Notes under the pieces: model-generated
Databases searched by the model: none
Told to the model about the DNA's origin: nothing
Seen by the model: only the letters and a program-made list of their open reading frames with translations
Position numbers and translations under genes: made by a program
Part shown: positions 1-28,393 of the stretch, piece by piece
How positions within the stretch are numbered: position 1 is the first letter of the stretch
How the letters are laid out: each line of letters opens with the position of its first letter
Assembly (NCBI RefSeq): GCF_002368415.1
Contig: NZ_AP018290.1
Coordinates: 2,989,614 to 3,053,613, forward strand
Length of the DNA stretch: 64,000 nucleotides
DNA from: Calothrix sp. NIES-4105
GTDB lineage: Bacteria > Cyanobacteriota > Cyanobacteriia > Cyanobacteriales > Nostocaceae
Reading direction: 5' to 3'

Positions 1-30
1 AGCCCCCCGCGTGGAAGGGGGTTGGGGGGA
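1..30. repeat. GC-rich intergenic repeat end
   Basis: A C-run followed by G-runs, able to fold back on itself, sits just upstream of the first gene. It resembles the C-rich/G-rich inverted repeats found elsewhere in this window (near 12440-12710 and 19000-19029). Any promoter of the following operon would lie in the 57 bases after it or before the window starts; no convincing -35/-10 pair was seen. Confidence 0.4.
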
Positions 31-87
31 TTAAAATCATTAACCAAGTAGTATTAAGACATTATCTAAATCATATAAAAGGTAATT

Positions 88-1566
88 ATGGAAAAAATTT
101 GGAATAGAGACTTTAAGAAAGTCAGGTCATATCTTTCAGATATATACGCTCTTAATCAAAATAAAATGCCTAAGAATATAACTATTTTAGGTGCTGGCAT
201 TTCAGGTTTAGTAGCTGCTCATGAATTAAAAAAGCTGAATCATAATGTTCGAGTTATAGAAGCTAGTAACAGAATTGGAGGTAGAATATGGACTTATAGG
301 TTTGGAGATAAAAATGGAATGCACTATGGAGAATTAGGCGCCATGCGTATTCCTTTCAATCATGAGTTTACCCATTACTACGTACATCAAATGGGGCTTC
401 AGCATAAACTTAGAAAATTTATTACTGTTCTTCAAAATAGTGAGTGTTTAATCGATGTTAATAATAAAGTCTGTCGTTTAAAAGATGCAATAGATGATAT
501 TTATCCCAGATATGAACTTTCCAAAAACAGAAACTTTCGGTCTAAATATACTGAACCTTTTGCAGCTGGTCTTAAAACAGTAGTAGATGTAATGTCTCCA
601 CGAGAGATTCGCGAAGTTTTTGCAGCAGATTTGAATAATCACTTGTTAGATACGATTGATACCCTTTTTTATGAAAAAAATATTCAGTTAAAAGAGGATG
701 ATTTATCTCTTAGTAATATACTACCAATGCTTTCTAAATTAAAAGGTAATTTTAAAAATGTCTTAAATACTTATATTAAACATATTATTCTTGAATCTGG
801 TAGTGAATTGTATCAAATCGTAGGAGGTATGGATCAACTCCCTCATAATATAGCAAAAGATTTGCAAGAAGAGATTAGATTGAATGCTGAGGTTACGGGA
901 ATAAAGCTTGAAGATAATCGGGTTAAAATAACGATTAATGACAACGAGCAAATATATAGCGATATCGTACTTTGTACAATACCATTTAGCGTATTGCGTG
1001 AGATGAAATTAGAAGGATTTTCTGAAGAAAAACTAGATGTTATTAATAACCTGACTTATATGGGTGCTAGTAAGGTACTGTTTTATTGCAAAGATAGATT
1101 TTGGGAAAATGATAAATATCAGATTAAAGAAGGAGCTTCTGTAAGCGATCAGTTTATTCGTCAAACTTATTATCCTATTACATTAGACGGCGCATCAAAT
1201 AATAAAGAAAATCCAGGTGTTTTACTTGCAAGTTATGTAATTGGTGAAGATTCAGATTATGTTGCTAGTTTAAATTCTAATGAACAAATCAATATGATTA
1301 AAAAAAGCGTTGGTCGATTTCATCCAGAAATTGAGGATAAAGATATGATTCAAGATATTGCTGTTGTTTCGTGGGAAAAGCAGAAATGGACTCGCGGATG
1401 TAGTGGTGTGATGTGGATTGGTAGAAAGAAATATAATCTCGAAGCTGTTATTAAGTCAGAAAAACAAATGTTTTTCGCTGGTGAACACTGCTCTCCAGAT
1501 AATGCCTGGATAGAAGGAGCAATCACATCTGCTTTAAGCCAAGTTGCAAAAATTATTCAGCTTTAA
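88..1566 (+). CDS. FAD-dependent L-amino acid oxidase in the VioA position
   Basis: Flavin amine oxidase (492 aa) that should oxidise L-tryptophan to indole-3-pyruvate imine with release of H2O2, the first step of violacein synthesis. Visible motifs are the FAD-binding ITILGAGISGLVAAHEL at about residue 31, the RIGGR motif at about 62, the ELGAMRIP stretch typical of the L-amino acid oxidase family at about 82, and the C-terminal flavin motif FFAGEHCSPDNAWIEGAI. It aligns along its length with the second oxidase at 12803-14350. It does not resemble Chromobacterium VioA (about 418 aa) beyond the FAD fold; the family looks closer to RebO/StaO-type and venom-type oxidases, so the VioA role is inferred from position at the head of the vio operon. 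AAAGG lies at a suitable distance before the ATG. Substrate is not shown by the sequence. Confidence 0.85.
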   Translation: MEKIWNRDFKKVRSYLSDIYALNQNKMPKNITILGAGISGLVAAHELKKLNHNVRVIEASNRIGGRIWTYRFGDKNGMHYGELGAMRIPFNHEFTHYYVHQMGLQHKLRKFITVLQNSECLIDVNNKVCRLKDAIDDIYPRYELSKNRNFRSKYTEPFAAGLKTVVDVMSPREIREVFAADLNNHLLDTIDTLFYEKNIQLKEDDLSLSNILPMLSKLKGNFKNVLNTYIKHIILESGSELYQIVGGMDQLPHNIAKDLQEEIRLNAEVTGIKLEDNRVKITINDNEQIYSDIVLCTIPFSVLREMKLEGFSEEKLDVINNLTYMGASKVLFYCKDRFWENDKYQIKEGASVSDQFIRQTYYPITLDGASNNKENPGVLLASYVIGEDSDYVASLNSNEQINMIKKSVGRFHPEIEDKDMIQDIAVVSWEKQKWTRGCSGVMWIGRKKYNLEAVIKSEKQMFFAGEHCSPDNAWIEGAITSALSQVAKIIQL

Positions 1567-1604
1567 CATTTATCGTCTATTGATGAAACTCAGGAGTGAA
1601 ATAA

Positions 1605-2192
1605 ATGAAAACTAACAAAAGTCAACCACCCTTACTACCAAAACAATGGTTTGCATCATACGTCACTTTTTGGGCGCCAATGAAAAAGGAAAATTTTATT
1701 TCCTCTGGGTGCGTATGGTTTGACTACGAATTAGAAGTTTATAGGATAGATGGGATTTTTAATCCTTGGGATGTTGAAAAAACTGGTCATCAATTATGGA
1801 TGTCAGAAATCACTTCTTACGGACAAGGAAAAAGTAAAATTTTCAAGCTTCCCTACCATGTTAAAAACCTATCTAACAAAAATGAATCTTTTGAATATGA
1901 AGTTGGTAACTTAACAAATGATGTAGTCGAAAGGCATAATTCGATTGTACCAAGAGATATTTTGATTTCTGGTAATGCAAAATTTCAAGGGAATGAAAAA
2001 ATATTTGGTGTGGAGGTAGATTGCTGGAAATTTGATTCAAATAATCCATTTCAAATGGAATGTTTTTATTTGAAAAAGCATAGTAACGAATTAATCAGAA
2101 TGACACAATTTAAAAATGGGCAATTATTAATTCGTGATTTACCTGTTTTCTCTACACAGACAATTGACCAAACAATATTTGCTACATATTAA
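1605..2192 (+). CDS. vioE: VioE, protodeoxyviolaceinic acid synthase
   Basis: Cofactor-free enzyme that diverts the VioB product (an imine dimer) by a 1,2-indole shift to protodeoxyviolaceinic acid. This step separates violacein from indolocarbazole pathways. The 195-aa protein matches Chromobacterium VioE (about 191 aa) from end to end as I recall it: PPLLP near the start, then YV(S/T)(Y/F)W(S/A)PM, WFDYE, RIDG(L/I)FNPW, LWMSE and RM near the end. Of the active-site residues I recall, Tyr17, Asn51, Glu66 and Arg172 appear kept as Tyr19, Asn53, Glu68 and Arg165, while Ser19 is Thr21. The SD sequence CAGGAG precedes the ATG. It lies 38 nt after the oxidase gene and 13 nt before vioB. VioE has few relatives outside violacein clusters, so this is the most diagnostic gene here. 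Confidence 0.95.
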   Translation: MKTNKSQPPLLPKQWFASYVTFWAPMKKENFISSGCVWFDYELEVYRIDGIFNPWDVEKTGHQLWMSEITSYGQGKSKIFKLPYHVKNLSNKNESFEYEVGNLTNDVVERHNSIVPRDILISGNAKFQGNEKIFGVEVDCWKFDSNNPFQMECFYLKKHSNELIRMTQFKNGQLLIRDLPVFSTQTIDQTIFATY

Positions 2193-2205
2193 AGGATATT
2201 ATACA

Positions 2206-4299
2206 ATGAGCGTCTTAGATTTTCCAAGAATTCACTTTTCAGGGTGGTGTCGTTTTCATAAGCCTACTGGCAATCAAAACAAGGCTGGAAATATTGATTT
2301 AACTACCAATGAAGTCTACTTTAACGAACAAAAAATAGACCATTCCGTAAAATCCGAGGATTTTTATCGTCATTATTGTAATCTTGGAATAAAATATAAT
2401 AGCCAAGGTCAAGAAGATTCGGAAGGTGTATTTAATCAGGCTGCTGGTCGCGATTTTGAAGGTAATTCTAGAGTTTCATGGAATGCCAAAATTGTCAGTA
2501 CGCAAACAGAATTCGGAGTTATAAACACTAATGACCCATTAATTGGTAAATCTGTTGATCTATGGGGTCACTATAATGAATACCTAGGTACTACATCGAA
2601 TGAGGCAAAAGTTGTAGAATTAGACTCCGCTTCTAATTGGACTACACATATTTACGGTGGACATTTTACTTTAGGACGTGATGGTGATTCTGTAAATTCA
2701 GGCTATTTGCTAAACGCTAACATTCCAGACATACAACACGCGCGTTGGTACAAAAATAATCACATCTTAAATTTTCCTGAACATTGGAATAGTGAAGAGA
2801 TTAAAAAAGCTGTAGTATATCAGTTTATTCTAGAAAAAGACGACGCAGATTTTTATCTGAATGACGAGCGGCTAAATTCCGAAACGTTAGCAGCTTTTCG
2901 TAATGCTTTAGAATGCGAGACAGCAAAAGGAATTGTGGTTCAATATTGTTTATTTAATGCAAATGAACCAGTACGACCAAACACGCCAACTTTTTATAGT
3001 TTAGTTGGAACGGTAGGAATTTGGTACGGAGATCGCGAGCTAGCAACTTATCCTGCGGGAAGAGTTATTTTTCCATTACAAAGTGTACAAAACCAGAAAT
3101 TCGTCGAAGGATGGGGATTACTTTCTATTCAGTTATTTCAAAAACACTTTAGCTTAAATATGCCAATCGCAGTTCCTATTAATGGTATTCAAGGCATATC
3201 AAAACCTCCTGTTTCTGAGCATGGTGAATTTCATGTTTTGCATGATTTATACTTGTTTTGCCAAGGCATTCAAGAACCACTTGCTTTAATACCTGCTGAA
3301 ACTTTTCAGAAAGCATCGTATTACAAAGTTTCAGGAATTTTCGATTGTAACTATTTAATGGAAATGAGCGATGAAATTTTGAATAAAATTGCTCAAAGTC
3401 CAATTTATATAGCTACTAAAGATGAAAATGGAAACTTTATATCTTTGTTGCAAGAGAAAGAGGTTATCATTCAAGCCAACAATGCTAATGTATACCTCGA
3501 ATACCCGTCTCATGAAAAGAAAGTTTTTTTTGATGAGTGTGTTGAGGTGCGTAGTTTTGTTAGAGGTGTTCCATCTACTGTTAAAAATATCCAGTTATAT
3601 CAGGTATATAACCCAGCAAACTTTCCATTTAAAGTAATGGAAATGAAGCAGGAAAAATTACCTAGCAACAAAGACCGCAAAATCTGCCTTGTTAAATTTG
3701 GTACTCCTGAAGTTAATAATGAATTTCAGACAGAACTCAAGTTTGATACAAATGAAGAAGGAAGAGCAAAGCTCACCTTGAGAGGACTCAATAGTGGAGG
3801 AGGAAGATTAATATTTAGTACGGAGGAACTAGAAAATGAATGTATCCAGCAACAATTAAACAAAGACCCTTTTGAAGCTTACGACAATAATAATGCATTG
3901 CACTTTTGGGAAAGAGCAAACGTTATACACGTAAAAGTTCTAGCCAATGATTGGCATTTAATAGATATTACATCAGAGGTAGATTTTAAATTTATGCTCG
4001 AAAACGTTTTGCAATTTTACGAGCTACTCTACCCTTTTATGAATCGTGAGTTGTTTAGCTTTCAAAATAAAAGTAGAACGGAATGTTATTCTTTGTTATC
4101 TCGGCAAATGTGTGACCCTAGTAATAGGAATAAATCATATTATATGCCTCCCACTAGAGAATTGTCATACCCAAAGGCTGTTCTATTTCAAAAATTCATG
4201 ACGAATGTTGCACAAGTAGGTTATATACCCTGCCAATCTAAAAACCTCAATAACAATAATAAAGGAGTTAAAAATGAAAATGAATCTTATTCCAGATAA
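2206..4299 (+). CDS. vioB: VioB N-terminal half (imine dimer synthase, split subunit)
   Basis: N-terminal part (697 aa) of the VioB/RebD/StaD family, which couples two indole-3-pyruvate imines. It opens with MSVLDFPRIHFSGW, nearly identical to VioB, and continues with LWGHYNEYL, YAAR-like and SYPAGR/TYPAGR stretches and the closing CDPSNRNKSYYMPPTRELS, all aligning with about the first two thirds of the roughly 1000-aa Chromobacterium protein. The start at 2206 is chosen over an upstream ATG because homology begins there and AAAGGA precedes it. The reading frame stops at 4299, exactly in the linker before the ferritin-like domain, which is encoded by the next, overlapping gene. It is somewhat longer than the corresponding part of VioB and so contains insertions. 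Either a real two-subunit VioB or a frameshift. Confidence 0.92.
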   Translation: MSVLDFPRIHFSGWCRFHKPTGNQNKAGNIDLTTNEVYFNEQKIDHSVKSEDFYRHYCNLGIKYNSQGQEDSEGVFNQAAGRDFEGNSRVSWNAKIVSTQTEFGVINTNDPLIGKSVDLWGHYNEYLGTTSNEAKVVELDSASNWTTHIYGGHFTLGRDGDSVNSGYLLNANIPDIQHARWYKNNHILNFPEHWNSEEIKKAVVYQFILEKDDADFYLNDERLNSETLAAFRNALECETAKGIVVQYCLFNANEPVRPNTPTFYSLVGTVGIWYGDRELATYPAGRVIFPLQSVQNQKFVEGWGLLSIQLFQKHFSLNMPIAVPINGIQGISKPPVSEHGEFHVLHDLYLFCQGIQEPLALIPAETFQKASYYKVSGIFDCNYLMEMSDEILNKIAQSPIYIATKDENGNFISLLQEKEVIIQANNANVYLEYPSHEKKVFFDECVEVRSFVRGVPSTVKNIQLYQVYNPANFPFKVMEMKQEKLPSNKDRKICLVKFGTPEVNNEFQTELKFDTNEEGRAKLTLRGLNSGGGRLIFSTEELENECIQQQLNKDPFEAYDNNNALHFWERANVIHVKVLANDWHLIDITSEVDFKFMLENVLQFYELLYPFMNRELFSFQNKSRTECYSLLSRQMCDPSNRNKSYYMPPTRELSYPKAVLFQKFMTNVAQVGYIPCQSKNLNNNNKGVKNENESYSR

Positions 4300-5524
4300 A
4301 ATTAATACTCATGAAGAGTTAATCTTAGCTCTTAAGGATGCCGTAGAACTGGAAATGTCATTAATGATTCAGTATATCTACGCTGCTTATTCGGTTCCTA
4401 ATTTAATCACTGGCAAACAGTATTTAGAAAGGGGTATTTGGAAACCAGAACATCTAGAGTTTATGTGTGGGGATGGTAAAGAGAAAATGAATCAAGGCGT
4501 TCGAGGTATTATACTTAGAATCGCAAAAGAAGAAATGATGCATTTTCTGATGGCAAATAATCTTTTGATGGCTGTAGGCGGTTCGTTTCATATTTGCACA
4601 CCTGACTTTTCAAAAATGTCTATGTTTTACCCTCTTGGTGTAGAAATGGCACTCGAACCTTTTTCCGAACCCTGTTTAGAAAGATTCATGCATTTTGAAT
4701 GGCCATCTTATTACAGTGATAGAACAAATCCAAGCCTTGGCAATAACGCTAAAACCACTTATAACACAATTAGCAACCTCTATCAAAAAATTAGGAAAGC
4801 TTTTCAAGACCACCCTGAATATATTCTTGTTGATAAGAAAAAGACAGGAGGTGAGCATCACCTATTTTTGAACCAAAAAACTAACAAACATCACCCTGAT
4901 TACCAATGTCAGGTAGATGACCTCAGTTCTGCCTTATTTACTATCGACTTGATTACCGAGCAAGGAGAAGGAGCTAGCATCAAGGACGAAACTATTAATG
5001 ATTCGCATTTCAGAAAATTTGAAAAAATGTATCAAACGCTACAGAAGTTTAATGCAAAAGATGAATGGTTCCAGGCTTATCCTGCATTAAAAAATCCAAG
5101 CATCAGTGGTAAGGCAGGTACTAACAAGGTATTAGATGCAGAAGCTGTGGAAGTTATGCATATTTTCAATGAATGCTTTGATATAAGTTTACAGATGATA
5201 GTTCAACATTTTGGGAAAAAACCAACAGAATCTTTAAGAAGGTCTAAATGGATGAATGCTTCTATCGATATTATGCTCGGTTTGATGCGTCCGCTCGGTG
5301 CTTTATTGATGTCTATGAAATCGGGAATACCAGGAAGCACTGCTGGCCCTTCTTTTGAATTAGAGCAACCAATTCAGTACATTCCATATGAAATTGCTGC
5401 AAAGAAAATCATTTCCCAGAAGTTTGAAAGACTTTATGCTACAGCACAAAAATTAGACATAATTCCGGATAGTACAAAGGAGTTATTACACTTTTTTATC
5501 AGTTTCACACACACACTTGATTAG
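4274..5524 (+). CDS. vioB: VioB C-terminal half, ferritin-like iminophenyl-pyruvate dimer synthase domain
   Basis: Ferritin-like C-terminal domain (416 aa) of VioB/RebD as a separate protein. It starts with a helix containing ELEMSLMIQYIYAAYS and has the metal-ligand pattern EEMMHFLMANNLLM about 60 residues later, followed by GGEHHLFLN, TDQGEG-like and RRS(R/K)WMNA stretches that align with the last 400 residues of VioB. It overlaps the N-terminal gene by 26 nt in another frame. A strong own SD (AAAGGAG) sits 6-7 nt before the ATG, so independent, coupled translation is plausible. With the partner protein it should form the dimer synthase that feeds VioE; iron or heme use is inferred from the family. 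Confidence 0.92.
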   Translation: MKMNLIPDKINTHEELILALKDAVELEMSLMIQYIYAAYSVPNLITGKQYLERGIWKPEHLEFMCGDGKEKMNQGVRGIILRIAKEEMMHFLMANNLLMAVGGSFHICTPDFSKMSMFYPLGVEMALEPFSEPCLERFMHFEWPSYYSDRTNPSLGNNAKTTYNTISNLYQKIRKAFQDHPEYILVDKKKTGGEHHLFLNQKTNKHHPDYQCQVDDLSSALFTIDLITEQGEGASIKDETINDSHFRKFEKMYQTLQKFNAKDEWFQAYPALKNPSISGKAGTNKVLDAEAVEVMHIFNECFDISLQMIVQHFGKKPTESLRRSKWMNASIDIMLGLMRPLGALLMSMKSGIPGSTAGPSFELEQPIQYIPYEIAAKKIISQKFERLYATAQKLDIIPDSTKELLHFFISFTHTLD

Positions 5525-5538
5525 GAAATTTATACTTT

Positions 5539-6846
5539 ATGGTACCAAATAAAGCAGCTAATAATAGTTCAACACCTTGGAAACCTATTCGACCAAGTGT
5601 AATGCTGACAATTATTACAATGATTGTTTTGGGTGGAATAAGTACTTATACTATCGGCAAGTTTCAGGATTCGCAGTCAAAAAAAGTTTCTAAATCTGAG
5701 GTTGTTATACCCAAAATTAAGACCGTGACTGCTTTAGGAAGATTTGAGCCGAAAGGAAATTTGGTAAAAGTGTCGGCATCGACATCGACTCAAGAAAATA
5801 GACTTGGGCAGTTACTAGTTAAGGAAAGAAGCAAAGTCAAAGCGGGACAAATAATAGCCATCCTTGATAGTCGGGGTAGACTTGAAGCTGATGTTGTCAA
5901 AGCAGAAGAACAAGTCAATATTACTCGTACTGATTTGGCAAAGGTGAAGGCAGGAGCGAAAAGCGGCGAAATTTTAGCCCAAAAAGCAACTATTTCTCGC
6001 TTAATCGCGCAGTTAGAGGGTGATAAGGCAGCCCAAAAGGAAACTTTAATCCGATTGAAAGCGCAGTTGGAAGGCGATAAAGCAGCCCAACTGGCAACTA
6101 TTGGGAGTGTTGAAGCAGAATTGAGAAATGCTGAAGCTGAATATCAGCGTTATAAAATGTTGAACGATAACGGTGCAATTTCTCGTTCCAACTTTGATAG
6201 TAAGCGTTTAGCGATGGAAACCGCTCAGAAGAAAAGAGACGAAGCCAAAGCTGTTGTAACTCGAATCGATGTCACGGGAAAAAAGCTAATTAGCGAGGCA
6301 CAAATAGTTCTTAATCGGATTGTTGCAACTGGAAACAAGCAAATTAGCGAAGCCAAAGCTACGTTAGACAAAATAGCTGAAGTGCGTCCTGTAGATGTAA
6401 AAGCAGCGGAGGCGCAAGTCACAGATGCTATTGCAGCAGTAAAGCAGGCAAGAGAAAAACTTGAACAAGCTTATGTGCGGGCGCCTCAAGATGGTGAGGT
6501 GTTGGAAATATATACACGTCCCGGAGAAATAGTTTCAACTAATGGCATTGTCGAGATTGGACAAACTAGCGAGATGTATGCTGTTGCAGAGGTTTACCAA
6601 AGTGACATTGGTAAAGTGCATCCGGGACAAAAGGTGACAGTTACAAGTGATTCTTTACCAAACAAACTATATGGAAGTGTGGATTGGATTAGCTCGAAGG
6701 TGCGTAAGCAAAATGTAATTAACACAGACCCTAGTGAGAATATAGATGCCAAAGTTGTTGAAGTACACGTAAAACTGGATCAAGCTTCCAGCGAGATAGC
6801 GTCTAATTTTACTAATTTACAAATCGAAGCGGATATTGAACTATGA
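5539..6846 (+). CDS. DevB/HlyD-type periplasmic adaptor of ABC exporter
   Basis: Membrane-fusion protein (435 aa) of the DevB family. One N-terminal membrane segment (about residues 24-45, IITMIVLGGISTYTIG) is followed by a biotinyl-lipoyl-like half, a long coiled-coil hairpin with internal near-repeats (AQLEGDKAAQ occurs twice, about residues 160-185) and the second lipoyl half around VRAPQDGEVLEIY, then a beta-barrel. It would link the inner-membrane permease DevC to an outer-membrane TolC-type channel. The gene overlaps devC by 4 nt (ATGA) and follows vioB by 14 nt, placing the exporter inside the vio operon. Export of violacein or an intermediate is inferred from this position alone; the known DevBCA of Anabaena exports heterocyst glycolipids. 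Confidence 0.88.
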   Translation: MVPNKAANNSSTPWKPIRPSVMLTIITMIVLGGISTYTIGKFQDSQSKKVSKSEVVIPKIKTVTALGRFEPKGNLVKVSASTSTQENRLGQLLVKERSKVKAGQIIAILDSRGRLEADVVKAEEQVNITRTDLAKVKAGAKSGEILAQKATISRLIAQLEGDKAAQKETLIRLKAQLEGDKAAQLATIGSVEAELRNAEAEYQRYKMLNDNGAISRSNFDSKRLAMETAQKKRDEAKAVVTRIDVTGKKLISEAQIVLNRIVATGNKQISEAKATLDKIAEVRPVDVKAAEAQVTDAIAAVKQAREKLEQAYVRAPQDGEVLEIYTRPGEIVSTNGIVEIGQTSEMYAVAEVYQSDIGKVHPGQKVTVTSDSLPNKLYGSVDWISSKVRKQNVINTDPSENIDAKVVEVHVKLDQASSEIASNFTNLQIEADIEL

Positions 6847-8024
6847 TTGGATTTATTCAACAGCTAGAGCGCCGAACGCCTTTAGGGTGGCTACAGCTAC
6901 GTCGTGAAAAAGGTAGATTATTAGTTGCATTATCTGGTATTGCTTTTGCTGACGTTTTAATGTTTATGCAGCTAGGTTTTCAATCAGCACTATTCGATAG
7001 TAACACTGCCCTTAATCGCTCTTTAGACACAGATATTGTTTTAATTAGCCCAAACGCCCAAAATATACAGAATATGTCTACTTTTTCGCGTCGGCGCCTA
7101 TATCAAGCTAAGGAACTAGCAGGGGTAAGTTCAGCAGAAGCGATGAATGTTCGTGTTATCAATTGGAAAAATCCTCAAACTCGTAAGGAGAATCCAATTC
7201 AAATTATAGGGGTTAATCCTGAAAAGTCACCGTTTAACTTACCGTCTGCCAATCAACAATTACATATAACTAAATTACCAGATACATTCTTATTCGACCG
7301 TACAAGCAGAGGAGCTTATGACAAAACAATTGCACAAGTCAGTCAAAATAAAGTTGCTACTACTGAAATAGAAAAACGTACTATAAAAATTAGTGGATTA
7401 TTTTCACTAGGAGCTTCCTTTGGGGCTGATGGTAGCTTAATTACCAGCAAAGATAATTTTTTACGGATATTTCCCAGGCAAAATGCAGCTAGCATCAATA
7501 TTGGTTTAATTAAACTTCAGCCTGGATATGACCCTATTGAGGTAGCAAAACAACTTAAATATCATTTGCGAAAATTTGATGATGTTAAAGTTCTTACTCA
7601 CTCAGAATTTATTCAATTTGAGAATGATTATTGGATGACAACATCTCCTATAGGCTTCATCTTTGGGTTAGGAACAGCAATGGGGTTTGTAGTTGGCGTA
7701 ATTCTTGTCTATCAAGTTCTCTCTACGGATGTAAATGCTCATATTACAGAATACGCAACATTCAAAGCAATGGGATATCACAATGGCTACCTACTTACCA
7801 TTGTGCTTGAAGAAGCACTCATTCTAGCAATATTAGGGTTTTTACCAGGTATTGTAATTCCTTTAGGGCTATATCAACTAACGCGAAATGCTACTAATCT
7901 CCCTATTTATATGACCTTAGCAAGAGCGCTTACGGTGCTAATACTAACTTTCATCATGTGTACGATTTCTGGAGCAATTGCCACTCGCAAATTGCAATCT
8001 GCCGACCCCGCTGATATGTTTTAA
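6843..8024 (+). CDS. DevC-type ABC exporter permease
   Basis: FtsX/MacB-like permease (393 aa) of the DevC family. The N-terminus reads TPLGWLQLRREKGRLLVALSG, typical of DevC, with the first membrane segment at about residues 25-45. A large periplasmic domain follows and three membrane segments cluster at the C-terminus (about 273-300, 322-345, 360-385). The protein ends with the family signature SADPADMF. Overlap with devB is 4 nt and the ATPase gene starts 12 nt downstream. Specificity cannot be read from the sequence. Confidence 0.9.
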   Translation: MIGFIQQLERRTPLGWLQLRREKGRLLVALSGIAFADVLMFMQLGFQSALFDSNTALNRSLDTDIVLISPNAQNIQNMSTFSRRRLYQAKELAGVSSAEAMNVRVINWKNPQTRKENPIQIIGVNPEKSPFNLPSANQQLHITKLPDTFLFDRTSRGAYDKTIAQVSQNKVATTEIEKRTIKISGLFSLGASFGADGSLITSKDNFLRIFPRQNAASINIGLIKLQPGYDPIEVAKQLKYHLRKFDDVKVLTHSEFIQFENDYWMTTSPIGFIFGLGTAMGFVVGVILVYQVLSTDVNAHITEYATFKAMGYHNGYLLTIVLEEALILAILGFLPGIVIPLGLYQLTRNATNLPIYMTLARALTVLILTFIMCTISGAIATRKLQSADPADMF

Positions 8025-8036
8025 TGGCTAAATTTT

Positions 8037-8714
8037 ATGGAACCTGTTGTACATATAAAAAATCTCAATCACTACTTCGGTAACGGTCAATTGCGAAAGC
8101 AAGTTTTATTTGATATTAATTTAGCAATTAACGCAGGTGAGATTGTTATCATGACTGGTCCATCTGGTTCTGGTAAAACAACGTTGCTAACTTTAATAGG
8201 TGGGTTACGCTCTCCTATGTCAGGTAGCTTACAAGTATTAGGACGCGAGTTAATTAATGCCAGTCCAAGACAATTAACCCAAGTGCGACGGAGTAACGGT
8301 TATATTTTTCAAGCACATAATTTACATGGCAGCTTAACTGCTTTACAAAACGTTAAAATGGGTTTAGAAGTGCATAAAAACCTTTCACTTGCACAAATGC
8401 AAACTAAGTCACAAGAAATATTAGAGACTGTAGGTTTAGGGTCGCACTTAAATAAGTATCCAAATGATTTGTCTGGAGGACAAAAGCAAAGAGTTGCTAT
8501 CGCACGCGCGCTAGTAAGTCATCCCAAAATTGTTTTAGCGGATGAACCCACTGCTGCTTTAGATAGTAAGTCAGGTAGAGATGTGGTTAACCTAATGCAA
8601 AAGTTAGCAAAACAACAAGGTTGTACGATTTTTTTAGTTACTCATGACAACCGTATTCTCGACATTGCCGACCGTATTGTCAATATGGAAGATGGTTATT
8701 TAGCAACAAGTTGA
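8037..8714 (+). CDS. DevA-type ABC exporter ATPase
   Basis: ATP-binding subunit (225 aa) of the DevBCA-like exporter, LolD/MacB type. Walker A is GPSGSGKTTLL at about residue 40, the signature is LSGGQKQRVAIARAL at about 143, Walker B is KIVLADEP and the switch histidine is in LVTHD. Length is usual for the family. It is the last of three overlapping or closely spaced exporter genes; 56 nt separate it from the MFS gene. Confidence 0.92.
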   Translation: MEPVVHIKNLNHYFGNGQLRKQVLFDINLAINAGEIVIMTGPSGSGKTTLLTLIGGLRSPMSGSLQVLGRELINASPRQLTQVRRSNGYIFQAHNLHGSLTALQNVKMGLEVHKNLSLAQMQTKSQEILETVGLGSHLNKYPNDLSGGQKQRVAIARALVSHPKIVLADEPTAALDSKSGRDVVNLMQKLAKQQGCTIFLVTHDNRILDIADRIVNMEDGYLATS

Positions 8715-8770
8715 AGCATTGCAGTATTTTTCACGTCCCTATATTCATCACTTAATCATCGAACTTCATT

Positions 8771-9994
8771 ATGGAACTTAATCATAGAAGCGACAAAAAT
8801 ATTCTTCAGGATTTCAATGTTTATATCATCATTAGTTTAACCCTGATTCCGATTATGGGTGAACTAACCATTGCACCTATACTCCCAGACTTAGCTAAAT
8901 TATTTAATGTCTCATTGAAGGAAGTTCAATTAGTAATAACCATCTTTTTTCTGCCTGTCATTATTGCTACTCCCATTTTTGGCATACTAGGTGACCGCAT
9001 GGGAATTAAAAAACTCTTAGTTCCTTCTTTGTTACTGTACGCTGTTGCAGGAGGTTATAGCGCTTTTGCTCAGGATTTTCAAACTCTCCTTTGGTGGCGA
9101 TTTATACAAGGCTTAGGTGCTACTAGCTTAAATTTTATGGCCCTTACTATCATCAGTATGATGTATCGGGGCAAAGCCTTGACGACAGTAATGTCTTTAA
9201 ACGTTGGTATAATTGGCATTAGTACGACGATTTTTCCGATTATCGGTGGGGTATTAGGAGGTTTTAGTTGGCGATATCCATTTTTACTAGCAGTTAGTGC
9301 TTTTCCATTGCTAATGTTGGTTTTAATGGTACTCAAATTACCCCAAAAACCCAGTAATAGCCAAAATGCCAATATCAAGATTTACCTGCAAGATACCTGG
9401 AACAGTATTAATAATCCTAGGGTACTAAAACTGCTGTTGACGTTAGGTTTTATATTCGCAGTTCAATCCGGCGCCTTTATAATTTACATCCCAATTTTAG
9501 CAGGAGTTAATCTTGGTGCTTCAGGGTTGATCAATGGCGTGATATTAAGCAGTATGTCAGTATCTGTAACAGTGGTTGCTTTGCAGTTAGGAAAGTTAAC
9601 GCGGCGAATATCAGAAATAAATCTGATTAAAATAGCTTTTATTATTATTGCCATCGCCCTAATAATGATTCCTACAATTCATAATGCCTGGTTGTTAATC
9701 ATCCCTTGTCTTTTATTTGGTGTGGGTGAAGCTTTAGCAATACCTTCTAGCCAAGCATTATTAGCGGAATTAGCAGTGGACAATGTACGAGCTGGATTTA
9801 TGGCGGTGAATGCTGCCGTACAATCAATAGCTCAAGTAGCTGGACCGCTAACGGCAGGAATATTTTTTAGCTTATGGGGAATACAGGGTGTCTTTTGGGG
9901 AACTGCTGGTATTACACTGGCTACATTTGCTTTATTTAATTTTCTGCTAAGTAAGTCGAGTTTAAAAGATAAAAAAATTTCTAGAGAGGTTTAG
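8771..9994 (+). CDS. MFS multidrug-type efflux transporter (DHA1)
   Basis: Major facilitator protein (407 aa) with about 12 hydrophobic segments. The loop after helix 2 has the family motif GDRMGIKKLL and an R-F-I-Q-G-L-G motif follows in helix 4 region (RFIQGLGA). Closest overall to Bcr/CflA/TetA-like drug:proton antiporters. It is transcribed with the vio genes, ending 1 nt before vioC, so self-protection or pigment export is a reasonable inference. Having both an ABC and an MFS exporter in the same biosynthetic operon is noteworthy. Confidence 0.88.
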   Translation: MELNHRSDKNILQDFNVYIIISLTLIPIMGELTIAPILPDLAKLFNVSLKEVQLVITIFFLPVIIATPIFGILGDRMGIKKLLVPSLLLYAVAGGYSAFAQDFQTLLWWRFIQGLGATSLNFMALTIISMMYRGKALTTVMSLNVGIIGISTTIFPIIGGVLGGFSWRYPFLLAVSAFPLLMLVLMVLKLPQKPSNSQNANIKIYLQDTWNSINNPRVLKLLLTLGFIFAVQSGAFIIYIPILAGVNLGASGLINGVILSSMSVSVTVVALQLGKLTRRISEINLIKIAFIIIAIALIMIPTIHNAWLLIIPCLLFGVGEALAIPSSQALLAELAVDNVRAGFMAVNAAVQSIAQVAGPLTAGIFFSLWGIQGVFWGTAGITLATFALFNFLLSKSSLKDKKISREV

Positions 9995-9995
9995 T

Positions 9996-11285
9996 ATGAG
10001 TAAAATTCTAGTTACTGGCGGGGGTCTTGCAGGTTGTTTACTTGCAATTTATTTAGCTCGTAGAGGACATGAAGTCCATGTACTGGAGAGACGCAGCGAC
10101 CCGCAAAAAGACGCTTCTTCATATACCGATCAAGCTTACTTCAGAGGACTTGGTGTCACGATGACAGCAAGAGGAATAAAAGCCGTTCTTGATGCAGGTA
10201 TTCCCAAAAAAGAATTGGAGTTGTGTGGTGAGTCGATAAATGGCATGTCCTTTTTTGTGGGAGGTAAATCTAAAATTCGCAAATTAGAGCCAATAGATAA
10301 CTTATCGCCTTTGTCGTTAGATAGATATGCGTTTCAAAAATTGCTGAACAAATACGCAACTATTAATGGCGTTAACTTTCACTTCGAGCATAAATGTATT
10401 GATGTTAATCTAGAGCAAAAGTCTCTAACTACCCTAGATAAAAATGGCGATTTTAATTATATATCCGGTGACTTAATAATTGGTACAGACGGCGCCCGTT
10501 CAAAAGTTCGTCAAGCCATGCAGAATGCTATCCGTAAATTTGAGTTTCAACAGACATTTTTCAAACATGGCTATAAAAACTTAGTTCTACCTGATGCTAC
10601 TTCTTTAAACTTGCGTAAAGACTTATTACACTTTTTTGGAATGGACTCAAAAGGCTTGTTTTGCGGTCGTGCCGCAACTATTCCAGATGGCAGTATTAGT
10701 TTTTGTATCTGCTTACCTTATGAGGGAGCAGTAAGCTTAAAGATGCAAAATACGCTAGATATCTCCCAATTCTTTTCGCGCTACCTCCCCCCGATGCCGA
10801 AAGACATACACAATGAAATGATCAAGCAGTTCATCGAAAAACCTAGTAATGACTTAATTAATGTATCATCAAGCACATACCATTACAAACAGAATGCATT
10901 GTTACTGGGTGACTCTGCCCATGCAACAGCACCTTTTCTAGGCCAGGGAATGAATATGGCACTAGAAGATGCCCAAATATTTTCTGAGCTTTTAGAAATA
11001 AATCGTGACGATTTTCAAAAAAGCTTGTCTGAATTTACTCAACTTAGAAAAGTCGAAGCAGATGCAATGCAAGATATGGCACGGGCTAATTATGAGGTAT
11101 TAAGTTGCTCAGACCCGATTTTCTTGATGCGTGCAAAATACGCTAACTATATGCACAAGAAATTTCCAGAAAAGTATCCGCCGGATATGGCAGAAAAACT
11201 TTACTTTACCTCTACGTCTTACAGTCAATTGTACTCTTTGCAAAAGAAACAAAATGTTTGGTACAAAATAGGGAGAATACACTAA
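9996..11285 (+). CDS. vioC: VioC, FAD monooxygenase (violacein synthase)
   Basis: Flavin-dependent monooxygenase (429 aa, same length as Chromobacterium VioC) that oxygenates the second indole at C2 and so finishes violacein. Family features are the FAD motif TGGGLAGCLLAIYLARRG, the DG motif IIGTDGARS and the GD motif LLGDSAHATAPFLGQGMN. Long stretches match VioC as I remember it, for example FQKLLNKYA, FEFQQTFF, EKPSNDLINV and the C-terminal KQNVWYKIGR(V/I). It is translated 1 nt after the MFS gene with GAGAGG as SD, and its stop overlaps the vioD start (TAATG). Confidence 0.96.
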   Translation: MSKILVTGGGLAGCLLAIYLARRGHEVHVLERRSDPQKDASSYTDQAYFRGLGVTMTARGIKAVLDAGIPKKELELCGESINGMSFFVGGKSKIRKLEPIDNLSPLSLDRYAFQKLLNKYATINGVNFHFEHKCIDVNLEQKSLTTLDKNGDFNYISGDLIIGTDGARSKVRQAMQNAIRKFEFQQTFFKHGYKNLVLPDATSLNLRKDLLHFFGMDSKGLFCGRAATIPDGSISFCICLPYEGAVSLKMQNTLDISQFFSRYLPPMPKDIHNEMIKQFIEKPSNDLINVSSSTYHYKQNALLLGDSAHATAPFLGQGMNMALEDAQIFSELLEINRDDFQKSLSEFTQLRKVEADAMQDMARANYEVLSCSDPIFLMRAKYANYMHKKFPEKYPPDMAEKLYFTSTSYSQLYSLQKKQNVWYKIGRIH

Positions 11286-12403
11286 TGAAAATACTAGTTG
11301 TCGGAGCAGGACCAGCAGGATTAATGTTTTCTTATCGAATGAAGAAACTCAAACCAGACTGGGATATCAAGGTAATTGAAAAAAATGACATAAACGAAGT
11401 TACAGGATGGGGGGTAGTATTGCCTGGTCGGGCGCCACATCACCCAGCTAACCCATTATCACATTTAGATGATTTTGATCAACTCTCTGCTCAGTATTTA
11501 GAAGAATTTAAGCTGGTTCATTGTGGTCAGAGCAATATGAAAAGCACAGGACTACCAGTGTGTGCTGTAGAAAGACGCGCGTTGCTGGGTTCTCTACAAA
11601 AACACTGTAAGAGACTTGATATAGAGATTGAGTATTCATCTCCTGCGATATCTGAGCCTGAACTGAATAGAGATAACTATGATTTAGTCGTGTTATCAAA
11701 CGGAATTAACCATAAGTCCACCTACTTTAGACAAGAACTGAAACCGGAAATAGAATATGGCAAAAATAAATATATTTGGTATGGCACCAGCAAAACCTTT
11801 GATTCTTTAAACTTAATCTTCAAACATCACCCGAAAGGTATTTTTGTCGCACACGCATATAAATATTCAAACGATATGAGTACCTTTGCGGTTGAGTGCA
11901 GTGAACAAACATATCTAAATGCTGAACTAGATAAACTTTCAGATGAAGAATCTGCTTTCTTTATCGCGCAGGTGTTTGAAGAAGAATTAGAAGGTCACAC
12001 TTTGCAGGGACAAAATGGATTAAAATGGCGGAACTTTATGACTCTCAGTCATCAAAAATCCTATGACCAAAACTTGGTATTATTAGGTGATGCACTTCAA
12101 TCAGGGCATTTCTCCATTGGGCATGGAACAACGATGGCAGTCCTAAGTTCACACATGCTCGTTAAAGCATTGAGTGAATATACCGATATTCCATCTGCTC
12201 TAAAATCATTTGACGCGAAAGTTATCCCACTTATGAGTTTATTCCGCGATCATGCCAACACAAGTCGTTTGTGGTTTGAAAGTATCGAGGACAATATAAA
12301 TCTTAGCACAACAGAACTTGTGGAAAGTTTTGATACACGTCGCAACGCCTTACCACCTTTGCCTAAAGCCCTTGGTCAAAATCTTATGGAAGCACTTAAA
12401 TAG
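11285..12403 (+). CDS. vioD: VioD, FAD monooxygenase (protodeoxyviolaceinate hydroxylase)
   Basis: Flavin monooxygenase (372 aa; Chromobacterium VioD about 373) that hydroxylates C5 of one indole of protodeoxyviolaceinate. It begins MKILVVGAGPAGLMF, keeps VTGWGVVLPGR, HPANPLS, YGKNKYIWYGTS, the GD motif LLGDALQSGHFSIGHGTTMA and ends LPPLPKALGQNL, all close to VioD. The start at 11285 shares one nucleotide with the vioC stop and is preceded by GGGAGA, so an upstream in-frame GTG is not needed. Presence of VioD predicts violacein rather than only deoxyviolacein. Confidence 0.96.
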   Translation: MKILVVGAGPAGLMFSYRMKKLKPDWDIKVIEKNDINEVTGWGVVLPGRAPHHPANPLSHLDDFDQLSAQYLEEFKLVHCGQSNMKSTGLPVCAVERRALLGSLQKHCKRLDIEIEYSSPAISEPELNRDNYDLVVLSNGINHKSTYFRQELKPEIEYGKNKYIWYGTSKTFDSLNLIFKHHPKGIFVAHAYKYSNDMSTFAVECSEQTYLNAELDKLSDEESAFFIAQVFEEELEGHTLQGQNGLKWRNFMTLSHQKSYDQNLVLLGDALQSGHFSIGHGTTMAVLSSHMLVKALSEYTDIPSALKSFDAKVIPLMSLFRDHANTSRLWFESIEDNINLSTTELVESFDTRRNALPPLPKALGQNLMEALK

Positions 12404-12478
12404 GAAACTGACTTTTCACGTTATGTGGAAAAACCAATCTAGAACCTAACCCCCCAACCCTCTTCCCTCGTAGGGAAG

Positions 12479-12644
12479 CTACCGTGTACACACAAGTTTT
12501 TGAAAGTTACTTTTCTTCCCTTTCTTCTCTTTCTTTGTGTCCTTTGTCACGAGCGTGGTTCCTTAAAGAGATAAACCACAAAGGTCACAAAGGGCACAAA
12601 GGGGGGAATATAAGAAGGGTTATAAAGATGTGTGTACACAGCAG
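12479..12644. mobile_element. MITE, copy 1 of 3 (166 bp, ~10-bp TSD)
   Basis: Non-coding element with ends CTACCGTGTACACAC and, inverted, GTGTGTACACAGCAG (the right end is slightly decayed). Its interior is a long imperfect hairpin built on CTTTGTG / CACAAAG and GTGGTT / AACCAC arms. The direct repeat CGTAGGGAAG flanks it at 12469-12478 and 12645-12654, consistent with a target-site duplication. It lies inside a C-rich/G-rich repeat between vioD and the second oxidase gene. Copies 2 and 3 are at 18698-18877 and 61028-61194. Confidence 0.8.
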
Positions 12645-12654
12645 CGTAGGGAAG

Positions 12655-12802: not shown

Positions 12803-14350
12803 ATGAGCTATCTTGACATGGACACAAAATCTATGCTGCTTAGTGCCAGATTAGCCAACACTCAACAAGGCAAACATATCACTATTCTAGGTGCAGGCAT
12901 TGCTGGTTTAGTCGCCGCCTACGAACTCGAAAGTATGGGTCACACGGTTAATATCATAGAAGCAAGCCCTCGCATCGGCGGTCGAGTTTGGACACACCGT
13001 TTTGGTAATGACTTAGATGCACCCTACGCTGAACTCGGTGCAATGCGTATACCCAGCGAACACCAACATACTTTACACTATGTGCGGGAAATGGGTTTAG
13101 CTGACAGACTCTGCAAGTTTGTAACAGTTTTTGAAGAAGAAAATGCTTTCATGAACATCGAAGGGCAAATCTTCCGCATGAAAGATGCATCCCGCTTTTT
13201 CCAAGAACGTTACCCAAGTATTTTTACTTTGGAGCGTTACAGTGAAAAAACTAAATTATTCGCAGCATGGTTAAAGACCATCGTCGATACCATCTCGCCT
13301 AATAACTTGCGTGAAAGCTTAGAGCAAGATTTAAAATCCCAATTGATGGATAAATTAGAACGTCTTGATTTAGAGCGTTATTTCAGCGAAGATGGCGAAA
13401 CCATCGACTTACAAAACTTTATTCTAGAAAATCCTGGTTTTCGCGCTCGTTTAAGCAAAGCTTTAGATATGTTTCTCAGTGACATTGTAGTTGAAACCAG
13501 TCACAATTTATTACAAATTGAAGGTGGTATGCAACTAATTATCGACCGTCTGGTAAAATCCATCAATGCTCCAATTAAATGTAACCAGCCAGTTGTAGCT
13601 ATCCGCACTCGCTCAGATTACACAGAAATTGATTATTTAGAAAATGGACGAAGACGCACTCGTCGCTGTGATTATGTATTATGTACAATTCCCTTCTCTG
13701 TAATGCGGAAAATGGAGTTGGAAGGATTTTCGCAGAGGAAATTAGATTCTATCCACAATACTATTTACTGTTCAGCTACAAAGGTGGCTTTTCATACTAA
13801 AGAAAATTTCTGGCAACAACAAGGTATTAAAGGTGGCGCCTCCTTTAGTGGTGCTGGTGTGCGTCAAACTTACTATCCTTCTGTGAAGTTTAATCCAAAA
13901 CGTGGTAGTGCGATGTTAGCTAGCTACACAATTGGCAATGATGCTGACCATTTGGGTAATATGTCCGAAACTGAGCGTCATAAGTATGTTAAGGATGTTG
14001 TTAGCAAGTTACACCCTGAGTTGCAACAAGAGGAGATGATTCAAGATATAGCTTCAATTGCTTGGGGTAATTACGAGTGGAGTGCTGGTGGGTGTACAGT
14101 ACATTGGAGCCATGATATGTCTGACCAGTCCATTCATACTAGTTATTATTTGGAAGCTGCTAAACCACAAAACACTCTGTTCTTTGCTGGCGAACATTGT
14201 TCTAAGTATCCTGCTTGGTTGCAAGGTTCAATTGAGTCAGCGCTGCAAGCGATCTATGATATCGTATCCCACAAAGCTGTAAAAGTTCCGGCTACGCCCA
14301 TTCAAAACAATTTAGAAGTGAGTGGATTTTGTCAAAAAGTAAATTTTTAA
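12803..14350 (+). CDS. Second FAD-dependent L-amino acid oxidase
   Basis: Flavin amine oxidase (515 aa), a paralogue of the oxidase at 88-1566. Shared motifs are ITILGAGIAGLVAAYEL at about residue 26, RIGGRVWTHRFG, ELGAMRIPSEH, CTIPFSVMRKMELEGFS, and the C-terminal FFAGEHCSKYPAWLQGSI. It has a longer N-terminus and C-terminus than the first copy. Its base composition is slightly richer in GC than the first oxidase, so the two genes are not a recent tandem duplication. It is the first gene after the MITE and precedes the FMN reductase and tryptophan-supply genes. It may be a second indole-pyruvate imine source or act on another amino acid; the sequence cannot decide. Confidence 0.85.
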   Translation: MSYLDMDTKSMLLSARLANTQQGKHITILGAGIAGLVAAYELESMGHTVNIIEASPRIGGRVWTHRFGNDLDAPYAELGAMRIPSEHQHTLHYVREMGLADRLCKFVTVFEEENAFMNIEGQIFRMKDASRFFQERYPSIFTLERYSEKTKLFAAWLKTIVDTISPNNLRESLEQDLKSQLMDKLERLDLERYFSEDGETIDLQNFILENPGFRARLSKALDMFLSDIVVETSHNLLQIEGGMQLIIDRLVKSINAPIKCNQPVVAIRTRSDYTEIDYLENGRRRTRRCDYVLCTIPFSVMRKMELEGFSQRKLDSIHNTIYCSATKVAFHTKENFWQQQGIKGGASFSGAGVRQTYYPSVKFNPKRGSAMLASYTIGNDADHLGNMSETERHKYVKDVVSKLHPELQQEEMIQDIASIAWGNYEWSAGGCTVHWSHDMSDQSIHTSYYLEAAKPQNTLFFAGEHCSKYPAWLQGSIESALQAIYDIVSHKAVKVPATPIQNNLEVSGFCQKVNF

Positions 14351-14474
14351 CTACTTATACTTCTATCGTCTCTGCATAAATTAACCAACTAATTCCCAAT
14401 AATATATATAAGTTCCTAAATCCATTAATGTGGAAAGCAAAATCCACAAATATCTGACAAATAAGGAGTTTGAT

Positions 14475-15026
14475 ATGCTGAACATTGTAGCAATTGCTGG
14501 AACCCCATCTCACCCTTCGAGAGCTTACGGAATTCTTGAATATTCTCAAAAAGTCTTACAAATAGAAGGAATATACACTCACATTCTTTCTGTTAGAGAC
14601 TTCCCTGCCGAAGATTTGGTATTGGGACGTTATAATAGTCCGTCTTTAGAGAATGCTGTAGAAATCATGAAAAAGGCAGATGGTGTAATTATTTGTACGC
14701 CAATCTATAAAGCCGCATACACTGGAGTTCTCAAGGCATTCTTAGATTTGCTTCCACAAGATATTTTACAAAACAAGGTTGTTTTACCTATCGGAGTTGG
14801 TGGAACCATTGCCCATCTATTAACAATTAATTATGCTCTCAAACCAGTACTTTGTGCTTTAGGCGCCCAACATACCTTAAGTGGTGTTTATGCCTTAGAC
14901 AAACAAATTCAATGGCAAACAGATGGTTCGGTTTTACTAGATGAAGAAATTGATGAGAGACTTAAAAAATCTTTACATGAACTTGTAAAAATTATCCAAA
15001 ATTCTCGGCAAATGGCAATCTTGTAA
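14475..15026 (+). CDS. NAD(P)H-dependent FMN reductase (SsuE-like)
   Basis: Flavodoxin-fold NADPH:FMN reductase (183 aa). The phosphate loop region is GTPSHPSRAYGILEY near residue 8 and the flavin-binding PIYKAAYTGVLKAFLDLLP lies near residue 78, both like SsuE. The start at 14475 follows a clear AAGGAG SD 6 nt away; an upstream in-frame start lacks one. It would supply reduced flavin. VioC and VioD normally carry bound FAD and use NAD(P)H directly, so its role with them is uncertain; sulfonate use is the other family role but no sulfonate genes are nearby. Confidence 0.85.
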   Translation: MLNIVAIAGTPSHPSRAYGILEYSQKVLQIEGIYTHILSVRDFPAEDLVLGRYNSPSLENAVEIMKKADGVIICTPIYKAAYTGVLKAFLDLLPQDILQNKVVLPIGVGGTIAHLLTINYALKPVLCALGAQHTLSGVYALDKQIQWQTDGSVLLDEEIDERLKKSLHELVKIIQNSRQMAIL

Positions 15027-15097
15027 AGCCATAAATTTGTAAATCATCAATCGGTAAAGTATTACTAACAACAATTCCAGAGGATTAAAAGCAAGCC

Positions 15098-16222
15098 ATG
15101 ATTATTATTATGAAAATCGACAGTCCGACAGAAGAAATTGAGTCAATTTACTCAACACTTCAAAGTTGGGGTATTACTCCAGAAAAATACGTCGGTAAGC
15201 ACAACATTGTAATTGGATTAATCGGAGACACCGAAGAAATAGACATTCGGCAAATTCAAAATTTAAGTCCTTGTATTGAGCGAGTTTTACGAGTGTCAAA
15301 ACCCTTTAAACGGGTTTCTCTAGAATTTCGTCATGGAGAATCATCTTCGGTAGTTGTATCAACCCCGAATGGAGCAGTAACTTTTGGTCAAAACCATCCC
15401 TTGGTAACAGTCGCTGGTCCCTGTTCGGTAGAAAACGAAGAGATGATTATAGAAACCGCGCTAGTAGTCAAAGCTGCGGGAGCGCAATTTTTACGAGGAG
15501 GAGCTTACAAACCCCGTACTTCTCCTTACTGTTTCCAAGGACATGGTGAGAGTGCTTTGGGTTTATTAGCTAAAGCGCGCGAAGTTACTGGTTTAGGAAT
15601 TATTACAGAAGTCATGGATACCGCTGATATTCAGAAAGTGGCAAATGTGGCAGATGTAATGCAAATTGGGGCCCGCAACATGTACAATTTCTCTTTATTA
15701 AAGAAAGTAGCTGCGGCGGGTAAACCTGTACTGCTGAAGCGGGGACTTGGAGCTACTATCGAAGAATGGCTAATGGCTGCCGAGTACATTTTAGCTGCTG
15801 GCAATCCCAATGTGATTTTGTGCGAGCGAGGAATTCGCACTTTTGACCAAAAGTATACTCGTAACACCCTCGACTTATCAGCAATACCAACATTGCGAAC
15901 GCTAACTCACTTACCAATAATGATTGACCCAAGTCACGGTACTGGTAACGCAAAATTCGTACCATCAATGGCAACAGCAGCGATTGTAGCTGGTACAGAT
16001 TCGTTAATGATTGAGGTTCATCCTAACCCATCTAAGGCACTTTCAGATGGTCCTCAATCTCTAAACTTGGAGCAGTTTGAAAGCTTAATGCTAGATATAA
16101 GTAGTTTTGCTAAAATCATGGGACGTTGGCCTCAACATGCTTTGACATCAGCTTTCAAACATTCTACATTCCCGGTTAATTCGCACTTTGCACGTACCTC
16201 AAATACCATGCTGCGCGCTTAG
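15098..16222 (+). CDS. aroF: DAHP synthase (3-deoxy-7-phosphoheptulonate synthase), class I-beta
   Basis: First enzyme of the shikimate pathway (374 aa), joining phosphoenolpyruvate and erythrose-4-phosphate. Residues 1-70 form the ferredoxin-like regulatory domain common in the Thermotoga-type enzyme (MIIIMKIDSPTEEIESI). The TIM barrel follows with GPCSVEN at about 107, LRGGAYKPRTSPY, QIGARNMYNF, LLKRG and the metal-site DPSHGTG. The start is the first ATG, preceded by AGAGGA and matching the usual family N-terminus. It lies 71 nt after the reductase and 82 nt before trpE(G). A dedicated copy beside trpE(G) suggests pathway-specific supply of chorismate for tryptophan. Confidence 0.93.
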   Translation: MIIIMKIDSPTEEIESIYSTLQSWGITPEKYVGKHNIVIGLIGDTEEIDIRQIQNLSPCIERVLRVSKPFKRVSLEFRHGESSSVVVSTPNGAVTFGQNHPLVTVAGPCSVENEEMIIETALVVKAAGAQFLRGGAYKPRTSPYCFQGHGESALGLLAKAREVTGLGIITEVMDTADIQKVANVADVMQIGARNMYNFSLLKKVAAAGKPVLLKRGLGATIEEWLMAAEYILAAGNPNVILCERGIRTFDQKYTRNTLDLSAIPTLRTLTHLPIMIDPSHGTGNAKFVPSMATAAIVAGTDSLMIEVHPNPSKALSDGPQSLNLEQFESLMLDISSFAKIMGRWPQHALTSAFKHSTFPVNSHFARTSNTMLRA

Positions 16223-16304
16223 AATTGCAATCTGGTACTGACGAGCGTGCTGAGAATAAGTGCGCTCTCTAATTATTCATAAAATCGTAACAAAGGTATT
16301 TCCA

Positions 16305-18584: not shown

Positions 18585-18597
18585 ACCTAACCCCCTA

Positions 18598-28384: not shown

Positions 28385-28393
28385 GTTACAAAG

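Follow-up and report, generated by a model that had tools for sequence, protein, structure and literature searches.

We analyzed a 64,000-nucleotide (nt) stretch of the Calothrix sp. NIES-4105 genome (contig NZ_AP018290.1, positions 2,989,614 to 3,053,613), which we call the window, for genes of violacein-type bisindole biosynthesis. Violacein is known from proteobacteria, and its chemistry uses an oxidase, VioB and VioE, followed by VioD and VioC. Ten plus-strand open reading frames (ORFs), uninterrupted and closely packed, fill positions 88 to 12403 of the window. They encode, in order, an L-amino acid oxidase (LAAO1), a divergent VioE (VioE'), the N- and C-terminal halves of VioB, DevB, DevC, DevA, a major facilitator superfamily (MFS) exporter, VioC and VioD, with successive intergenic gaps of 38, 13, -26, 14, -4, 12, 56, 1 and 2 nt. 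A preliminary description had read this row as a complete violacein-type operon with exporters and precursor genes in a cyanobacterium, and every gene it named was found in place (Table 1). The set does not start at position 88 as that description had it, because a glycosyltransferase gene and a tryptophan halogenase gene precede it on the same strand. A second L-amino acid oxidase (LAAO2) begins 399 nt after VioD and is followed by an SsuE-type FMN reductase, DAHP synthase and a fused TrpEG, ending at 18584. Farther upstream, on the opposite strand, are trpB- and trpA-like genes, with flanking ORFs that we read by eye as trpC and trpD. Contamination is unlikely, since the contig that carries the locus is 11,062,175 bp long and belongs to a 12.04-Mb genome that is 100% complete with 1.2% contamination.

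Table 1. Genes of the Calothrix sp. NIES-4105 locus in window coordinates; negative positions lie upstream of the window
Feature	Position	Strand	Remarks
UDP-glycosyltransferase	-3379 to -2078	same as operon	upstream of window
Tryptophan halogenase	-1873 to -263	same as operon	upstream of window
LAAO1, L-amino acid oxidase in VioA position	88..1566	+	subfamily other than VioA
VioE', divergent VioE	1605..2192	+	VioE fold predicted; most pocket residues conserved
VioB N-terminal half	2206..4299	+	matches TIGR04492 positions 1-585
VioB C-terminal half, ferritin-like	4274..5524	+	matches TIGR04492 positions about 590-988; 26-nt overlap with N half
DevB-type membrane fusion protein of ABC exporter	5539..6846	+	NCBIfam above cutoff
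DevC-type ABC permease	6843..8024	+	NCBIfam above cutoff
DevA-type ABC ATPase	8037..8714	+	NCBIfam above cutoff
MFS exporter	8771..9994	+	also in Nostoc flagelliforme and G796 violacein loci (69-71%)
VioC, flavin monooxygenase	9996..11285	+	cyanobacterial violacein clade
VioD, flavin monooxygenase	11288..12403	+	cyanobacterial violacein clade
LAAO2, second L-amino acid oxidase	12803..14350	+	nearest kin adjoin unsplit VioB in G380 and Calothrix NIES-4101
NADPH-dependent FMN reductase, SsuE type	14466..15026	+	
DAHP synthase	15098..16222	+	shikimate-pathway supply
Fused anthranilate synthase TrpEG	16305..18584	+	tryptophan supply

VioC and VioD scored 735 and 616 bits, just below their NCBIfam cutoffs of 760 and 620, and VioD matched the PDB VioD entry 3c4a with an E value of 4e-146. 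Each fell inside a cyanobacterial violacein clade with support of 100/99 in trees of 18 (VioC) and 17 (VioD) rows; the rows of all our trees were chosen by hand from 56 scanned VioE loci and from fetched genome stretches, not all of which were taken. The two proteins are 76 to 82% identical to those of cyanobacterial violacein-type loci, and identity to non-cyanobacterial violacein loci is 59 to 67% for VioC and 47 to 61% for VioD. End-to-end alignment of VioE, VioC and VioD with Chromobacterium proteins had been claimed; the coverage held, at identities to the C. vaccinii proteins of 57% for VioD, 63% for VioC and only 34% for VioE.

VioE' matched the Pfam VioE model with 169 bits (cutoff, 25) and is 33 to 41% identical to 12 aligned non-cyanobacterial VioE rows. 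With the copies of Mojavia pulchra JT2-VF2 and Nostoc sp. XA010, it formed a separate 100/100 clade on a long branch of a 24-row tree. Clade membership had been put forward as a check on VioE, VioC and VioD, and it bore out the last two as violacein-clade enzymes, with VioE not clearly so, as it groups apart from other VioEs. The protein is predicted to have the VioE fold and keeps most of the residues that we presume to have roles in the VioE pocket. From the fold, these residues and the company of VioC and VioD, we infer that VioE' still yields a skeleton with a shifted indole.

The two VioB parts noticed earlier both match TIGR04492 and together span nearly all of it (457 and 380 bits), with the split falling before the ferritin-like domain. 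Of 14 genomes searched, 11 had matches to this model, but no match, here or elsewhere among them, exceeded its cutoff of 1250. We rejected a frameshift or sequencing error because the split is identical in two other genomes, and the divided protein formed a separate 100/100 clade with the Mojavia and XA010 copies in a 22-row tree, seven rows of which, including that of the window, have unusual composition. VioB matches in the NIES-4105 genome were confined to this one place, and a PDB search with the halves returned no convincing relative (best E values, 0.87 and 0.32). The C half was matched in 41 of 217 family genomes (E value, 1e-20), 3 of them with the split kind. Because of this spread, and because cyanobacterial VioB-like proteins of RebC loci and violacein loci intermix in the tree, we rejected VioB as a violacein marker; the same count suggests that indolocarbazole-like loci may be common in the family. 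Among seven unsplit VioB-like loci, we saw a RebC-like monooxygenase at four (L087, L089, L092 and L093), a StaP-like P450, more than 60% alike, at four (L087, L088, L089 and L093), and an LAAO2-type oxidase at four (L088, L090, L091 and L093); L087 to L089 are from the same genus as the window.

An L-amino acid oxidase does occupy the VioA position, as described previously, but it is not VioA. With that enzyme replaced by a member of a different oxidase subfamily, the operon falls short of completeness as classically understood. LAAO1 scored 195 bits with the Pfam amine-oxidase family and 41 bits with the VioA model, against a cutoff of 600, and is 16 to 19% identical to seven VioA proteins. 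It formed its own clade in a 19-row tree that carries a long-branch warning where VioA meets LAAO1, and the other 11 cyanobacterial oxidases placed were likewise not VioA. The kin of LAAO1 are the Mojavia and XA010 copies (70 to 71% identical). LAAO2 falls into a different grouping from LAAO1, whose two members closest to LAAO2 (78% and 72%), in G380 (L088) and Calothrix NIES-4101 (L090), adjoin unsplit VioB and P450 genes. RebC was not found in these two stretches, and we therefore softened the label "indolocarbazole-cluster oxidase" for LAAO2. Either LAAO1 or LAAO2 could carry out the VioA step. The block running from LAAO2 to TrpEG is bracketed by related intergenic repeats (12408-12665 and 18685-19070) with an 82-nt direct repeat that is 74% alike and 48-nt inverted arms that are 92% complementary. 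Their core motif recurs at 44229 and 61070, with 8 matches at up to 3 mismatches versus 0.06 expected; these sequences may represent a repeat common to intergenic regions, or they may provide a means of exchanging cassettes.

The upstream halogenase has a Trp_halogenase domain (Pfam, 539 bits). Among proteins of solved structure, it is closest to PrnA (E value, 6e-191), which we take to be a tryptophan 7-halogenase. It keeps the catalytic residues K79 and E346 of PrnA and the indole clamp H101/F103/W455. The halogenase occurred in 3 of 14 genomes tested (E value, 1e-60), with 80 to 81% identity; these are the very genomes in which VioB is split, and a glycosyltransferase is present at the same three loci, the Mojavia copy being 60% identical to that of NIES-4105 and the XA010 copy 94% identical to that of Mojavia. 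The SsuE-type FMN reductase is a possible supplier of flavin to the halogenase.

The preliminary description associated violacein clusters with proteobacteria and not with cyanobacteria, but this locus is not the sole cyanobacterial case. The Pfam VioE model matched 9 of 217 genomes in the family, 2 of 388 in the order and 1 of 386 in the phylum, counts that include the NIES-4105 genome each time and come from overlapping draws. The other order-level match (G272) has a DevB-like neighbor, and its sequence matches Pleurocapsa MO_192.B19 (L011), so we dropped the idea of a contaminant and counted it as cyanobacterial. A scan of a genome-contig collection, which may leave out near relatives of NIES-4105, gave 56 VioE loci: 8 cyanobacterial, 46 from Pseudomonadota (by title), 1 from Bdellovibrionota and 1 from Myxococcota. 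Of the 48 loci from outside the cyanobacteria, 46 combine VioE with VioB, VioC and VioD; those of Fluviispira and Myxococcus showed no VioD. All four genes stand together in two of the eight cyanobacterial loci, those of N. flagelliforme FACHB-838 and Anabaena azotica FACHB-119, and the Pleurocapsa locus is cut by a contig end. VioC and VioD were not found at three Calothrix loci and two VioE' loci, nor anywhere in those genomes at an E value of 1e-50, with the sole exception of a weak VioC-like match in Calothrix PCC 7103. At the three Calothrix loci (L014, L015 and L016), an ordinary VioE adjoins an LAAO2-type oxidase, and their products are perhaps of the prodeoxyviolacein type. In G796, VioD and VioE are fused in one 571-residue ORF (L067:9473-11188), and more than 1 Mb of the contig separates this ORF from an unsplit VioB. 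Two further genes, encoding a type III polyketide synthase and a protein with a cytochrome b5 domain, are found among the violacein genes of N. flagelliforme (L012:6209-9233) and G796 (L067:13558-16481), as called by Pfam on the N. flagelliforme copies, to which the G796 copies are 73 to 75% alike; further tailoring by these proteins is possible.

The locus resembles the vioABCDE clusters of Chromobacterium, Janthinobacterium, Pseudoalteromonas and others in having VioB, VioC, VioD and VioE on one strand. It differs in the replacement of VioA, in the division of VioB into two proteins, in a divergent VioE placed second in the row, in exporters within the row, in its tryptophan-supply genes, and in the halogenase and glycosyltransferase next door. 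Cyanobacterial violacein loci share parts of this layout: MFS and DevB-like genes in N. flagelliforme (L012); MFS, DevBCA and an LAAO2-type oxidase in G796 (L067); and an LAAO2-type oxidase, DAHP synthase and TrpEG in A. azotica (L013), where neither MFS nor DevBCA exporters were seen. These three loci have an ordinary VioE, unlike the window (40 to 41% identity to VioE' for L012 and L013), and an unsplit VioB. Mojavia (L064/L096) and XA010 (L065/L115), in contrast, share VioE' (66%) and the VioB halves (66 to 70%), as well as DAHP synthase, TrpEG and trpA/trpB, with NIES-4105. They carry a P450, two methyltransferases and an acyl-CoA-dehydrogenase-like hydroxylase in place of VioC and VioD, and exporter homologues were not found in the stretches of theirs that were searched. 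Their methyltransferases and hydroxylase had no match in the window or in two upstream stretches (L071 and L116). For their P450, we found only a 129-residue match at 49548-49931 on the minus strand, 37 kb from VioD, which is 32% alike to the C-terminal region of the P450 from Mojavia and is perhaps a P450 remnant.

Composition also varies along the locus. GC content is 0.340 in 88-5524 but 0.386 and 0.402 in the two blocks that follow. Of 59 stretches of the window, the first 5 kb is the most deviant in trinucleotide use. The trees assign VioC/VioD, VioE'/VioB'/LAAO1 and LAAO2 to three groupings, and gene content and composition agree with the trees in pointing to a mosaic. On this evidence, we think it probable that the locus is a mosaic operon for a violacein-type bisindole, in which a halogenase-linked set was joined to a cyanobacterial exporter-VioC-VioD set. 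The join measures only 14 nt within closely packed genes, an argument for joint use of the combined set. These are known enzyme families in an arrangement with a changed entry enzyme, a divided VioB and added tailoring.

In the pathway that we propose, LAAO1 or LAAO2 would oxidize L-tryptophan to indole-3-pyruvate imine, two molecules of which would be coupled by the two-protein VioB. VioE' would shift an indole to give a prodeoxyviolacein-type skeleton, and VioD and VioC would oxygenate it to a violacein-type chromophore for export by DevBCA, the MFS protein or both. DAHP synthase, TrpEG and the upstream trp gene set would supply tryptophan, the PrnA-like halogenase probably halogenates an indole intermediate, and the UDP-glycosyltransferase probably adds a sugar. 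Such an operon would have arisen when a set comprising the halogenase, glycosyltransferase, LAAO1, VioE' and split VioB was joined to the exporter-VioC-VioD set. We infer both the chemistry and co-transcription. The product is most likely a violacein-type bisindole and, going by the co-occurrence of the genes, plausibly a halogenated and glycosylated one; with the glycosyltransferase and halogenase preceding the set on the same strand, the locus may make something other than plain violacein (mass 343).

Several observations weigh against a single operon with this output. VioE' scored 155 bits with TIGR03650, below the cutoff of 177, and is about 33 to 42% identical to VioEs outside its own clade; given this low identity and the failure to find VioC and VioD in the Mojavia and XA010 genomes (E value, 1e-50), the VioE' reaction could have changed. 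In all three halogenase copies, Y444 and E450 of PrnA, which presumably hold the amino-acid end of tryptophan, are replaced by N and G. The substrate may accordingly be an indole without a free amino-acid end, perhaps not tryptophan itself. Gaps of 350 nt between halogenase and LAAO1 and 204 nt between glycosyltransferase and halogenase are wider, and these two genes may form a unit of their own; the neighbor of the halogenase in Mojavia and XA010 is TrpEG, not LAAO1. Promoter-like matches (53 versus 56.6 expected) and terminator-like matches (14 versus 12.8 expected) in window 1-19000 showed no excess. Homologues of the FMN reductase were not seen in 17 other stretches searched, and their absence from those of Mojavia and XA010 weakens its role as a halogenase partner. 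This absence and the lack of a visible RebC at the loci nearest to LAAO2 slightly lowered our confidence in the mosaic operon and in a halogenated and glycosylated violacein as its product.

The 350-nt gap would suit a plain violacein or deoxyviolacein operon, in which VioE' and VioB' replaced the standard proteins, with the halogenase and glycosyltransferase being either relics or part of some other unit. VioC, VioD and, at two of three loci, the exporters do resemble cyanobacterial violacein loci whose genomes (G739, G805 and G796) had no such halogenase (0 of 3 at an E value of 1e-60). Nevertheless, halogenase and glycosyltransferase accompany VioE' and the split VioB in 3 of 3 genomes and so travel with that set. 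We consider this explanation unlikely. We give about as little weight to the idea that the 5' set makes a different bisindole, presumably as in Mojavia and XA010, on which VioC and VioD act to give a product that is not of the violacein type. The long 100/100 branch of the VioE' clade would fit, as would the P450, hydroxylase and methyltransferases that those relatives carry without a detectable VioC or VioD; VioE', however, keeps the predicted fold and most pocket residues beside a VioC and VioD close to violacein-clade enzymes, and the relatives' tailoring genes are unmatched here except for the 129-residue P450-like fragment.

The loci of known indolocarbazole clusters bear on a third explanation. 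Rebeccamycin and tjipanazole clusters share with the locus the logic of tryptophan halogenase, L-amino acid oxidase, dimer synthase and glycosyltransferase, but here RebC was not found and VioE, VioC and VioD are present instead. The RebC query (E value, 1e-30) had no match in the NIES-4105 genome and matched 4 of 8 genomes searched. Two relatives in the genus, G706 and G708, have VioB-like loci with RebC (E value of 1e-186 to PDB RebC for the G706 copy) and a P450 matched best in the PDB by 2z3t, which we take to be StaP. A search with the StaP-like P450 of Calothrix PCC 7103 (E value, 1e-10), covering the window and the upstream stretches L071 and L116, found no match. That the locus is a mislabeled indolocarbazole cluster is thus very improbable, even with a halogenase, a glycosyltransferase and a second oxidase with kin beside unsplit VioB all present and with VioB alone unable to tell the two classes apart, and the earlier preference for violacein over indolocarbazole stands.

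Other features of the region were noted, all but the last of them by eye. Two very long adhesin-like ORFs (1826 and 1619 amino acids) lie between the trp genes and the glycosyltransferase (L071:4417-15005), with further adhesin-like long ORFs in L116. Window 27914-28957 holds two adjacent small genes that resemble those for a helix-turn-helix antitoxin and a PIN-domain toxin, and TnpB-like ORFs (IS200/IS605 type) are at 50004-50723 on the minus strand, apparently truncated, and at 57088-58392 on the plus strand. The last is a cysteine protease of the papain family at 53799-54929, which carries a long acidic extension at its C terminus.

Open-access titles and the beginnings of abstracts contained no report of a cyanobacterial violacein cluster, for which an earlier description elsewhere is possible; those on halogenated violacein covered engineering work and reviews and mentioned no natural pathway. 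We tentatively suggest, at somewhat less than even likelihood, that the locus makes a natural halogenated and glycosylated violacein, an undescribed pigment class, with Mojavia and XA010 representing a second, P450- and methyltransferase-tailored branch on the same VioE'. Violacein, a bioactive pigment, is in wide use, also as a reporter in synthetic biology. Its pathway occurs in several cyanobacteria with the first enzyme replaced, and in NIES-4105 it has probably become a mosaic that includes a halogenase and a glycosyltransferase. The locus offers a divergent VioE for comparison with the classical enzyme, a two-protein VioB and candidate pigment exporters, and it allows the natural occurrence of halogenated violaceins to be tested directly.

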